A stretch of 64,000 bases of DNA, taken from positions 1 through 64,000 of the forward strand of contig NZ_LXEI01000008.1 in assembly GCF_001642835.1 (NCBI RefSeq). Reading direction: 5' to 3'. The notes beneath the pieces are model-generated. The model was not told the origin of the DNA. It worked only from the letters and a program-made list of their open reading frames with translations, and did no database searches. The stretch comes from Pseudotamlana agarivorans (lineage in GTDB: Bacteria; Bacteroidota; Bacteroidia; Flavobacteriales; Flavobacteriaceae). This document shows positions 30,692-39,298 of this stretch, one piece after another. Made by a program: the position numbers and the translations under genes. Position 1 is the first letter of the stretch. The number at the start of each line of letters is the position of its first letter.

Positions 30692-30877
30692 TTACACCCC
30701 TATTAGCTACGCTAGGTAATATGTCAAACCTCTAAAAACACCCCTATAATCCCCTCCAGGGGATATTGGTTCTCGTTTTTGATTTGGCTTTTGGGGTAAA
30801 ATTATGGTTTGTGCTTTCAATTTTTACAAATAGTAAACGTAAGGCATTGTCCCCTTGAGGGGACCACAGGGGTGTAA
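30692..30877. repeat. Multi-palindrome repeat element, copy 1
   Basis: 186 bases, with terminal inverted ends ttacacccct and aggggtgtaa. Inside are two palindromes, tcccctccagggga and tccccttgagggga, near the two ends, separated by a spacer with tttggggtaaaattatgg. The left (cacccctataatcccct) and right (cacaggggtg) arms can pair with each other. The copy at 31356-31538 is nearly identical and has the same orientation. It sits between the polysaccharide operon start and the DUF559 gene. Confidence 0.85.
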
Positions 30878-30880
30878 CGC

Positions 30881-31243
30881 CTACTTCAACTCATCAACAG
30901 CTTCCTGAATCGTTAATAACACGCTAAATAAATTATTTTTCACCTCTGAATTTGAAAACCTTAAAAACCTAATACCATACGCTTCTAAATCACCTTGACG
31001 TTTAGCATCATATAAAAAACTATAATCATGACTACTTCCATCTATTTCAATAGCTAATCCTATTTCGTGACAAAAAAAATCAACGATGTATTTTAACATT
31101 GGTACTTGTCTATGAAACTGAACACCAAAAGCTCGTTTTTTTATTTTTTGCCAAAGAATAACTTCTGGTAGGGTGCTGTTTTTTCGAAGTTGTCTTGCTA
31201 AATCTTTTAATTCTGGATTATAGGGGATAATTTTATTTCTCAA
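30881..31243 (-). CDS. DUF559 endonuclease-like protein (Vsr-like fold)
   Basis: 120 residues. PEVILWQKIKKRAFGVQFHR and KYIVDFFCHEIGLAIEIDG followed by SSHDYSFLYDAKRQGDLEAYG are the conserved DUF559 blocks. D in VDF, E and D in IEID and the following H form the PD-(D/E)xK-like/Vsr-like active site, and all are present. GIRFLRFSNSEVKNNLFSVL ends the domain. The start is a TTG at 31243. The gene stands alone, bracketed by two nearly identical repeat elements only a few bases to 112 bases away. The DNA target and role are unknown. Confidence 0.85.
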   Translation of the reverse strand: MRNKIIPYNPELKDLARQLRKNSTLPEVILWQKIKKRAFGVQFHRQVPMLKYIVDFFCHEIGLAIEIDGSSHDYSFLYDAKRQGDLEAYGIRFLRFSNSEVKNNLFSVLLTIQEAVDELK

Positions 31244-31355
31244 AATAGTTTGGTTTGATTTATTTCTTTGTAGTAAAAATACTTCAAATTAAATATATTG
31301 CAAGTATATGTGAATATGGTATTAATATTTACCACTGAATTTAGCTCACATAAAA

Positions 31356-31538
31356 TACACCCCTATTAGCTGCGCTCTGTAATACCCCAACCTTTAAAAC
31401 ACCCCTATGATCCCCTCTAGGGGATATTGGTATGCGTTTTTGATTTTGCTTTTGGGGTAAAATTATGGTTTGTGCTTTCAATTTTTACAAATAGTAAACG
31501 CAAGGCATTGTCCCCTTGAGGGGACCACAGGGGTGTAA
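31356..31538. repeat. Multi-palindrome repeat element, copy 2
   Basis: Direct repeat of copy 1. From tattgg to gtaacgcc (about 118 bases) I count only about four mismatches by eye. It has tcccctctagggga and tccccttgagggga palindromes and ends in aggggtgtaa. It lies upstream of the DUF559 gene start, so the gene is flanked on both sides by the same element in the same orientation. Confidence 0.85.
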
Positions 31539-31541
31539 CGC

Positions 31542-31730
31542 CAAGCCCCCCTCAATTAGCTACGCTAGGTATCTTCAATAAAAACAATGTTTCCATCTTG
31601 ATTGTCCTCAAGAGGATACTGGTTATCGCCATTGATTTGGCTTTTGGGGTAAATTTGTGCTTCGTTCTTTGAATTTTTACAAATGGAAACGCGAGGCATT
31701 GTCCCCTAGAGGGGACTACAGGCGGTGTGA
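31542..31730. repeat. Multi-palindrome repeat element, diverged copy 3
   Basis: It starts directly after copy 2 with a different left arm (attagctacgctaggtatc, then aacaatgttt and tcctcaagagga). It then rejoins the family at gatttggcttttggggtaaa and ends with gtcccctagaggggac and ggcggtgtga. The space between 31244 and 31826 holds nothing else except copy 2 and AT-rich DNA. The short open frame seen across it on the minus strand is a by-product of the repeat. Confidence 0.75.
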
Positions 31731-31826
31731 CATCCCACTTCCTCACTCCCTTTTCAACAAAAACCACCTACCCTTATAAGGCCTTTTTAGTTTTTTGTCC
31801 GTTATTTGCAAAAAAATAAATAGACT

Positions 31827-34768: not shown

Positions 34769-35056
34769 CTACAATTTTTCATTCAAATCTTGTCTTCCTA
34801 TAATTGCCATTATCTCTACAATGTCCTTATTTACTTTAAAATAAATACTATCAACGCCACAAACACAACGTCTGTAGTCCTTTTTTATATAGTCAACCGA
34901 TTCGAATGAAAAGGGTCTTTGAGCAATAATTTCAAAATATTTAAAAAATGATTCAAAGTATTTGTCCGCTTGAGTAATTCCAAATTTTTTCACACCATAA
35001 TGATGAATGCGTATCAAATCATTTTTAGCTTCATTACTTAATCTATATTTAGCCAT
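34769..35056 (-). CDS. parE: ParE/RelE-type toxin
   Basis: 95 residues. YRLSNEAKNDLIRIHHYGVK followed by FGITQADKYFESFFKYFEII and RRCVCGVDSIYFKV matches ParE-like ribbon-helix-helix-partnered toxins (family plasmid stabilisation ParE). The overlap of 8 bases with the upstream antitoxin gene is the normal type II arrangement. The last residues (IMAIIGRQDLNEKL) include the I-x-x-x-R-x-D toxin end. It probably targets gyrase or the ribosome. Confidence 0.85.
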   Translation of the reverse strand: MAKYRLSNEAKNDLIRIHHYGVKKFGITQADKYFESFFKYFEIIAQRPFSFESVDYIKKDYRRCVCGVDSIYFKVNKDIVEIMAIIGRQDLNEKL

Positions 35057-35288
35057 TAAGCAAAGACTTTGATTGCGCTAGGATGTCATTTTTACTTTCA
35101 CTTGTAAACCCGTTATCTTCGGCTTTCTCTAATTTAGCTCGTATCCAGTTAACTTCAATTTGCTGTTTTCGAGCTTGTCTAATTAAATCATTTACTAGTT
35201 CGCTCTTACTTGAATATTCTTTACTATCCACTTGAGTTTTTAGCCATTCATCGTTTGGCTTTGTGAATGATATACTTTGTCTTGGCAT
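35049..35288 (-). CDS. parD: ParD-like ribbon-helix-helix antitoxin
   Basis: 79 residues. The N-terminus SISFTKPNDEWLKTQVDSKE leads into YSSKSELVNDLIRQARKQQ, a ribbon-helix-helix fold as in ParD. The C-terminal half is the charged toxin-binding region. It is upstream of and overlaps the toxin gene by 8 bases. Upstream lies a TATATTTA box at 35306-35313 (minus) next to cgaattcg, a possible self-regulated operator. The repeat element at 35397-35567 begins 109 bases upstream. Confidence 0.85.
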   Translation of the reverse strand: MPRQSISFTKPNDEWLKTQVDSKEYSSKSELVNDLIRQARKQQIEVNWIRAKLEKAEDNGFTSESKNDILAQSKSLLNG

Positions 35289-35324: not shown

Positions 35325-35396
35325 AATCAATAAAAAATAATTACCAACTTATAGGTTTCAACATTTGTTTTCCAGTAATCACAGCTCAACAATGAA

Positions 35397-35567
35397 ACAC
35401 CCCTATAATCCCCTAAAGGGGATAGTGATTCGCGTTCTTAATTCATCAGTTGGCTGAAATTAATCTTCATACTTTCAACAATTAATAGTACATGTGTCGC
35501 ATTGTGTCCTCGAGGATTATCGAGATGAAAACCACTGGTTTTATCGAAGATACCTAGCGGAGCTAAC
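35397..35567. repeat. Multi-palindrome repeat element, mosaic copy 4
   Basis: It begins acacccctataatcccct with aaagggga, like the left arm of copies 1-2. It ends with tcctcgagga, an aaaaccactggtttt hairpin and gaagatacctagcggagcta, which is the reverse complement of the left arm of copy 3. It therefore joins two arm types and has lost the gggg-rich centre. The 379-base gap between parD and hutI contains this element, then short tracts such as acacagttaaacaattac. Confidence 0.7.
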
Positions 35568-39056: not shown

Positions 39057-39180
39057 CCCCCCCTATTAGCTGTGCTATATACCTTCAACGAAAACGATGT
39101 TTTCATTTCGGTAGTCCTCAAGGATAAACACCCCGTGATCTCCGAGGATGAACACCCCTATAATCCCCTCAAGGGGATAA
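39057..39180. repeat. Multi-palindrome repeat element, partial copy 5
   Basis: It starts cccctattagctgtgctat with a cgaaaacgatgttttcat hairpin and tcctcaagga. It ends with cacccctataatcccct and the palindrome tcccctcaagggga. The bases 38992-39056 before it are direct-repeat-like (gttgac and gactcttgac units), and 39181-39297 are AT-rich with an acacggttaaacaattacac tract. This fills the 307-base hutU-hutH gap. Confidence 0.7.
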
Positions 39181-39298
39181 CGCTCGTTTTCAATTCGAAG
39201 ATGCGTCTATCGCTCTTCATGTCATGTTTCATAATTAGCGCTTCAAGCTTTCCTATTACACGGTTAAACAATTACACGAATAAACTATATAAATAAAA

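Follow-up and report, generated by a model that had tools for sequence, protein, structure and literature searches.

DUF559 nuclease genes and the triplex-type palindromes at their borders: a candidate mobile two-part element

Introduction

In the genome of Pseudotamlana agarivorans (Flavobacteriaceae), a gene coding for a DUF559 protein is enclosed by a palindromic element that is present in two direct copies. This locus raises the question of whether such a gene and the palindromes around it form a unit and, if they do, what kind of unit it is. The window analysed here is the whole stretch of 64,000 nucleotides that contains the locus. The original prediction, made from these letters, was that the DUF559 protein may recognise or cut the palindromes and spread or maintain them, as a transposase-free, REPtron-like system of which no description was known. 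The family (PF04480) remains filed in Pfam as being of unknown function. In the open-access literature, with subscription papers and preprints mostly outside it, no paper was found that joins DUF559 or ycjD, the DUF559 gene of Escherichia coli K-12, with intrastrand triplex motifs, BoxC or PIT; in this literature, the pairing is as undescribed as had been supposed.

Results

The cassette of the window

The following features were delimited in the window:

30692-30880, no strand: palindromic element copy 1, two inverted units and a spacer, with palindromes at 30750-30763 and 30850-30863
30881-31243, minus strand: DUF559 / Vsr-like PD-(D/E)XK nuclease gene, 120 amino acids, TTG start
31356-31541, no strand: palindromic element copy 2, in direct orientation, with palindromes at 31411-31424 and 31511-31524
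31548-31731, no strand: palindromic element copy 3, diverged (77% identity), with one intact palindrome at 31702-31715
35395-35515, no strand: partial dispersed element copy (72% identity), with a palindrome at 35409-35422
39151-39190, no strand: single dispersed unit (86% over 40 nt), with a palindrome at 39164-39177

The gene product matches PF04480 with an E-value of 1.5e-29 and 102.5 bits in a profile search, for a curated cut-off of 20.6. As noted at the outset, the gene has a TTG start and intact D and E-x-D residues, and it lies between direct copies of the element, which are 91% identical overall and 95% identical across 147 nt. Both copies display a REPIN-like layout, with paired TCCCCTNNAGGGGA palindromes placed in inverted units that are separated by a spacer. 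The two tcccct-NN-agggga palindromes announced for each copy are found as TCCCCTNNAGGGGA at 30750 and 30850 in copy 1 and at 31411 and 31511 in copy 2. Two details were corrected: the last 118 bases of the copies differ at five positions and not at about four, and only copy 1 has ttacacccct/aggggtgtaa as exact inverted ends, copy 2 beginning with atacacccct. Copy 3 and the partial copies at 35395-35515 and 39151-39190 had not been noticed before.

The 3.83-Mb genome contains 17 exact TCCCCTNNAGGGGA palindromes, five of which lie no farther than about 0.5 kb from the DUF559 gene, and the reversed control pattern has no occurrence; the palindromes are thus present beyond chance. The cassette is bordered by a Poly_export gene and an ABC_tran ATPase gene (Pfam), which we take to code for a Wza-like polysaccharide export protein and an ABC-F type ATPase. 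The dispersed copy at 35395-35515 directly adjoins a ParE_toxin gene (Pfam; 34769-35288 with its partner), and the small partner upstream of this gene, presumed to be an antitoxin, has no Pfam match.

Conservation and fold of the DUF559 protein

The residues D55, E66, D68 and H72 are invariant in 42 DUF559 sequences and are presumably the catalytic residues. In a larger set of 236 domains, including 35 from long frames, E27, W31, Q46 and D55 are conserved in 236/236 and E66, D68 and H72 in 234/236. This conserved active site shows, at the level of the alignments, that the putative nuclease is under strong constraint.

A structure model of the window protein (pLDDT 89.9) resembles the DUF559-like structure 3HRL (NGO0050) with a Z-score of 15.9, the catalytic domain of I-Bth0305I (3r3p) with a Foldseek E-value of 6.7e-4 and a Z-score of 12.3 (rmsd 2.3 over 93 residues), and Vsr with a Z-score of 9.7. 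Judged from this model, the closest solved structure of studied function is the homing endonuclease I-Bth0305I. PADLOC gave only weak matches, to mREase_II (3.5e-4) and DpdF (9.5e-4). Within the same family or fold, YcjD was earlier placed among the PD-(D/E)XK proteins (PMC1189080) and VsrA of Caulobacter, which has a DUF559 domain, has in vivo been associated with damage to DNA (PMC12907096). In the accessible parts of the literature on YcjD, VsrA and 3HRL, palindromic borders are not mentioned.

Repeats on both sides of DUF559 genes

The original prediction would lose its ground if the DUF559 genes of relatives lacked such flanks, and relatives do carry them. Many Flavobacteriaceae have window-type palindromes within about 100 bp of a DUF559 gene, often on both sides, and in other phyla many DUF559 loci have different C/G-rich palindromes in equivalent positions. 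For the counts, the best repeat common to the 300 bp on either side of the gene was scored, and a score of at least 30 was taken as positive. The Flavobacteriaceae sample comprised 249 genomes from 235 genera and gave 68 short-frame loci, the window's included, drawn from at least about 92 matches listed (mostly the better-scoring ones, with some stop-containing frames omitted). A scan with the window protein, restricted to one genome per species, gave 63 loci from many phyla. For Pseudomonadota and Cyanobacteriota, the best match per genome was kept among the best 30 at most of each search (30 and 29 loci used), and a mixed set was made of 28 out of 30 loci, after omission of two weak ones, with several loci per genome; this last set partly repeats loci of the species scan (L198 is L047 and L189 is L073, for example).

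A repeat common to both sides was found at 55/68 short-frame loci of Flavobacteriaceae and at 43/63 loci of the species scan, against 21 of 1016 control windows taken elsewhere in the fetched loci. Among the other open reading frames of the 63 loci, 4/83 have such a repeat (12/185 when direct neighbours are included). The association holds for the short frames of Pseudomonadota (15/23), Cyanobacteriota (12/13) and the mixed set (16/25), for which the distal controls gave 3/30, 0/29 and 0/27, respectively. These counts show that DUF559 genes are flanked far more often than the controls, a comparison that had been proposed. The score was not reached at 13/68 and 20/63 loci of the two main sets. 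Long-frame loci pass in 3/17 cases; they are no suitable negative control, as those scanned proved to be in-frame insertions that have their own palindromic borders. Chance or recombination alone, which the first reading of the locus had kept as another source of the linkage, was rejected on the comparison of both main sets with the control windows and the other reading frames.

The layout of the units could be read in 65 of 137 short-frame loci. In 40 of these the units form an inverted pair with the third tracts directed toward the gene; the remainder comprises eight inverted pairs with the third tracts directed away from the gene and 17 direct pairs. At one locus (L047/L198), the DUF559 gene lies within a 32-nt inverted pair without mismatch, in the manner of a transposon with terminal inverted repeats. 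The copies that flank DUF559 are often direct repeats, which indicates that tandem duplication contributes. In one genome (G073), two DUF559 matches in one orientation are 1.4 kb apart (L162/L163), suggesting a tandem duplication of the cassette. A metagenome-assembled genome of Neomarinimicrobiota (L069) has TCCCCATTGTGGGGA on either side of its DUF559 gene, a different palindrome in a like arrangement.

Among the first 24 of 80 DUF559 loci on viral contigs, 10 of the 22 that could be scored have a repeat common to both flanks. Plasmids were rejected as the main vehicle of DUF559, as only 35 of 72,556 plasmid records match.

Cognate pairing and co-occurrence in genomes

In 13 genomes, at least two DUF559 loci had been fetched, which allowed the repeats to be compared within one genome (L162/L163 were excluded from the between-locus counts). 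Inside one locus, the two flank repeats match each other in 25/29 cases; when flanks from different loci of a genome are compared, the figure is 13/72. Between loci, the proportion of pairs with a repeat similarity of at least 30 is 0.9% at 30-40% protein identity, 10% at 50-60% and 64% from 70% upward. Across 149 loci, the similarity of the repeats is correlated with that of the proteins (Spearman 0.22, a value reached in 0 of 999 permutations), and the coefficient is 0.34 in the Flavobacteriaceae subset (n=56). Each DUF559 gene is mostly paired with its own cognate repeat, and for this reason the flank repeats are more than sequences that are merely common in these genomes.

Genes and palindromes also co-occur in whole genomes. 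A DUF559 match was called clear at an E-value of about 1e-14 or better, after sorting by hand. Among 200 Pseudomonadota, at least two occurrences of CCCTCTCCCN{2,8}GGGAGAGGG were detected in 30 of the 47 genomes with a clear DUF559 and in 10 of the 153 without (Fisher 2e-15, in a test that ignores kinship). This pattern has 1741 copies in 54 of the 200 genomes and its reverse only one site in all 200. In the 249 Flavobacteriaceae, at least two TCCCCTNNAGGGGA are present in 20 of 64 genomes with a short-frame DUF559 among the matches listed, against 5 of 185 other genomes (Fisher 2.4e-9, kinship again ignored). Some palindrome-rich genomes have no clear DUF559: G278, G286, G309, G314, G349, G400, G411, G421 and G459 among the Pseudomonadota, with 107 copies in G400, 105 in G421 and 57 in G314, and, among the matches listed, G157 and G202 in the Flavobacteriaceae. 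These genomes indicate that the repeats can outlive the gene or lack it.

Occupied and unoccupied sites

Orthologous loci, whose comparison had been proposed as a search for empty sites, differ between congeners. In three of them (G084, G577 and G579), the export gene and the ABC gene are separated by a short interval that contains neither DUF559 nor palindrome, so that the site of the window cassette is empty there. In a fourth congener (G576, L306), the interval has no DUF559 and includes a C-rich, partly palindromic stretch, CCCCCCTCGAGGCGACTACAG, which looks like a decayed unit; as it stands without a gene, units and gene would not always travel together. In G578 (L305), short repeats that are unrelated to the cassette (CGTGCCTCCTTCTGAATGA and similar) form an array in the interval. 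The right border of this array is equal to that of the window cassette, and the position is possibly an insertion hot spot.

A second site lies between the genes for DsbD and a Wzc-like kinase. There, G084 has its own DUF559 gene and six CCCC-GGGG palindromes, four of them exact, and the window genome (G000) has two palindromes and no DUF559. A third site, between purE and the M3 peptidase gene, was read in 30 of 59 matched genomes of Flavobacterium, the genus of L047, and could be measured in 28. A DUF559 cassette with the 32-nt inverted pair is present in one of these 28 intervals, which is that of the query genome itself, and the other 27 contain no such palindrome and no DUF559. By eye, the borders at the window site and at the purE-M3 site are too diverged or of too low complexity for a target-site duplication to be called.

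DUF559 domains inside larger enzymes

Thirty-six frames bearing DUF559 were scanned with Pfam (E 1e-5 or 1e-8) and aligned to their E. coli homologues. In four enzymes, the domain has host sequence on both sides. In LeuRS, it is inserted at 14 loci, all at about residues 236-243; in MetH at three loci, at about residues 741-743, one frame (L091) having two DUF559; in RecG at two loci, at residues 414-421, between DEQHRFG and TATPIPR; and in PriA at five loci, just ahead of the Walker A motif. Each host enzyme has one site. The junctions in LeuRS, MetH and RecG leave no more than six residues of the E. coli homologue unmatched, whereas the N-terminal part of PriA aligns poorly to its homologue. 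The 17 long frames of Flavobacteriaceae that were scanned, from at least about 37 listed, are distributed among LeuRS (13), MetH (3) and RecG (1). The genome of the window has one of the RecG insertions (L009, G000:C47:235824-236126), in a protein of 852 amino acids in which the palindromic borders are translated as linkers. The only DUF559 match of G084 among those listed lies elsewhere than in RecG, and so the RecG insertion seems to be variable within the genus.

Palindrome-type hairpins accompany most long-frame DUF559: 33/35 have one in the 150 bp upstream and 31/35 in the 120 bp downstream, the figure for control windows being 105/560. The Pfam matches of the 36 frames at these E-values include no intein family. 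From the frames alone, the insertions in LeuRS, RecG, PriA and MetH are apparently unspliced and placed beside active-site motifs. Together with the bracketing seen in many bacterial groups, the presence of the same cassette inside essential genes suggests that nuclease gene and palindromes are the coding part and the termini of a single mobile element. A narrow search of the open-access literature found no paper on in-frame DUF559 insertions.

Other long frames combine DUF559 with domains of restriction-modification methylases, GHMP kinases, radical SAM proteins, M14 peptidases and histidinol dehydrogenase; several of these are terminal fusions or neighbours in the same frame and not demonstrated insertions. 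One GHMP kinase frame (L239) has two DUF559 domains. In a tree of the 236 domains, the insertions of MetH, RecG and PriA each form one clade, those of LeuRS are mostly included in a clade of 16 sequences together with RecG (weak support), and the domains from methylase, GHMP and M14 frames are scattered. Such grouping by host is compatible with homing and no less with vertical descent or with lineages specific to a site.

Relation to the BoxC and PIT elements of E. coli

The palindromes known in E. coli since the 1990s as BoxC and PIT were described as intrastrand triplex motifs and renamed TMECO by Holder et al. (2015, PMC4666352, in which the earlier work of Hoyne 2000 and Hoyne 2002 is cited). 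Such a motif combines a C-rich arm and the complementary G-rich arm with a third tract, again rich in G. In Table 1, that paper places TMECO no. 9 at 1351239-1351204 in MG1655, with printed letters identical to those of nos. 16, 19 and 22. From coordinates and letters, no. 9 is the unit that lies downstream of ycjD at a distance of about 170 bp. Gene and repeats are both present in K-12, which has 23 listed triplex motifs besides ycjD; at ycjD, triplex-type units stand on the downstream side only.

The third tract of the units that flank DUF559 was compared with the other tracts in 107 of 149 units: the scores are 0.74 for a mirror, 0.71 for a direct and 0.62 for a shuffled arrangement, and the mirror fits better in 40 units, the direct repeat in 19 and both equally in 48. 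A third tract is thus more frequent than in shuffled sequence, and its mirror symmetry is modest. On their layout, we assign the window-type repeats to the BoxC/PIT type of triplex motif. They resemble BoxC/PIT/TMECO in the succession of C-tract, G-tract and G-tract, the inverted pairs of units, the dispersed intergenic copies and the instability of the loci, which in E. coli are more variable among strains when they contain a triplex motif (PMC4666352). The difference is the presence of DUF559 partner genes here; in the accessible part of PMC4666352, whose main text never uses the term "endonuclease", no functional class is reported for the genes flanking TMECO.

The ycjD query is matched over at least 80% of its length in 3333 out of 5426 genomes of E. 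coli. With E-values up to 0.01, the 56-bp unit was detected in 5375 genomes, and the median number of its places in these is 18. In three genomes without the ycjD locus, fabI is adjoined by TetR/RND efflux genes. In the fabI region, two strains without ycjD (L269 and L271) retain a short stretch that resembles half a triplex unit. In another strain (L272), where ycjD is annotated as incomplete, a deletion between direct copies of the 3' end of ycjD took out the adjoining palindrome.

Discussion

Comparison with known systems

The bracketing of a gene by palindromes, with non-autonomous copies dispersed in the genome and often in inverted pairs, is reminiscent of REP/RAYT systems (REPtron, REPIN). 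Here, however, the bracketed gene codes for a PD-(D/E)XK/EDxHD nuclease (PF04480) and not for a Y1 HUH transposase. In palindrome-rich genomes, exact TCCCCTNNAGGGGA was found near 8/18 DUF559 loci (within 0.5 kb) and near 0/30 Y1_Tnp loci (within 1.5 kb; 12 of 16 genomes with a match). A RAYT was consequently rejected as the mover of the palindromes, and the notion of a transposase-free, REPtron-like system agrees with these counts and with the existence of dispersed copies.

With the EDxHD, Vsr-like homing endonuclease I-Bth0305I, the DUF559 proteins share the predicted fold and a placement beside conserved motifs of essential genes; unlike homing endonuclease genes, they have palindromic borders and an open host frame, with no intein family around them. 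The palindromic elements of Rickettsia are palindromic repeats located in frame within coding genes, as is the DUF559 cassette, which differs from them by its nuclease gene; to our knowledge, the Rickettsia elements carry none. The element departs from REP/RAYT by its enzyme and from inteins by the missing splicing domain.

Gene and palindromes as one element

We consider it somewhat more likely than not that the DUF559 gene constitutes one mobile two-part element with its bordering palindromes, which are C/G-rich and have a third G-tract. The association and the cognate pairing are observed; recognition, cutting and copying are inferred. The DUF559 protein would be a homing-type nuclease of EDxHD/Vsr fold, and the palindromes, BoxC/PIT included, would be both its cognate DNA ends and its recognition sites. 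The nuclease would recognise the unit, probably as a folded hairpin or triplex, and nick or break the DNA there, and repair could then copy either the whole cassette (unit, gene, unit) or a unit alone. Units copied alone would spread as non-autonomous repeats, of which BoxC/PIT may be dispersed offspring. Cassettes would land between genes or in frame within genes, where their translated borders would give linkers rich in proline and glycine. The wider proposal has only slightly better than even odds in our estimation: DUF559 genes and their cognate triplex-type palindromes would represent a class of selfish element that is widespread across many bacterial phyla and has gone unrecognised. Its driving force would be a nuclease of homing type in place of a transposase, the BoxC/PIT repeats would be its non-autonomous offspring, and it could colonise LeuRS, RecG, PriA and MetH in frame.

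Alternative explanations

In the main rival reading, the palindromes serve as target instead of ends: triplex repeats of other origin (slippage or another enzyme) would pre-exist, and a selfish homing DUF559 would insert by or into them. The DsbD site fits this reading, with two palindromes and no gene in the window genome and a gene among palindromes in G084, and so do the decayed unit without gene in G576 and the palindrome-rich genomes without DUF559. As the whole story it is opposed by the three congeners and the 27 Flavobacterium genomes in which gene and palindrome are both missing from the site, and the repeat sequence moreover follows the DUF559 clade. We regard it as unlikely, though worth keeping in mind.

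A resident repair function appears distinctly less probable. A Vsr-like enzyme would process hairpins or triplexes that block replication, and selection would keep gene and repeats together without self-mobility. The similarity to the fold of Vsr, the instability of triplex-motif loci among E. coli strains (PMC4666352, in its accessible part) and the link of Caulobacter VsrA with DNA damage (PMC12907096, likewise) are in its favour, but it explains neither the in-frame cassettes of LeuRS, MetH, RecG and PriA nor the sites that differ between congeners.

That the palindromes merely terminate, insulate or regulate the transcription of the gene, or are linked to it by chance through recombination between repeats, is very improbable: they are GC-rich hairpins, and the flanking copies are often direct repeats that recombination can make, but the few flanked reading frames and control windows of the same loci, the cognate pairing and the lack of promoter or terminator activity of PIT elements in earlier work (as related in the accessible part of PMC4666352) argue against it.

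Biological significance

If gene and palindromes are indeed the two parts of one mobile element, the link would give a testable role both to BoxC/PIT, repeats for which no origin or gene partner had been described, and to DUF559. It suggests a route by which palindromic repeats spread by means of a nuclease, without a transposase, and it may account for the instability of triplex-motif loci. Selfish DNA may, in addition, enter essential proteins without a splicing domain.
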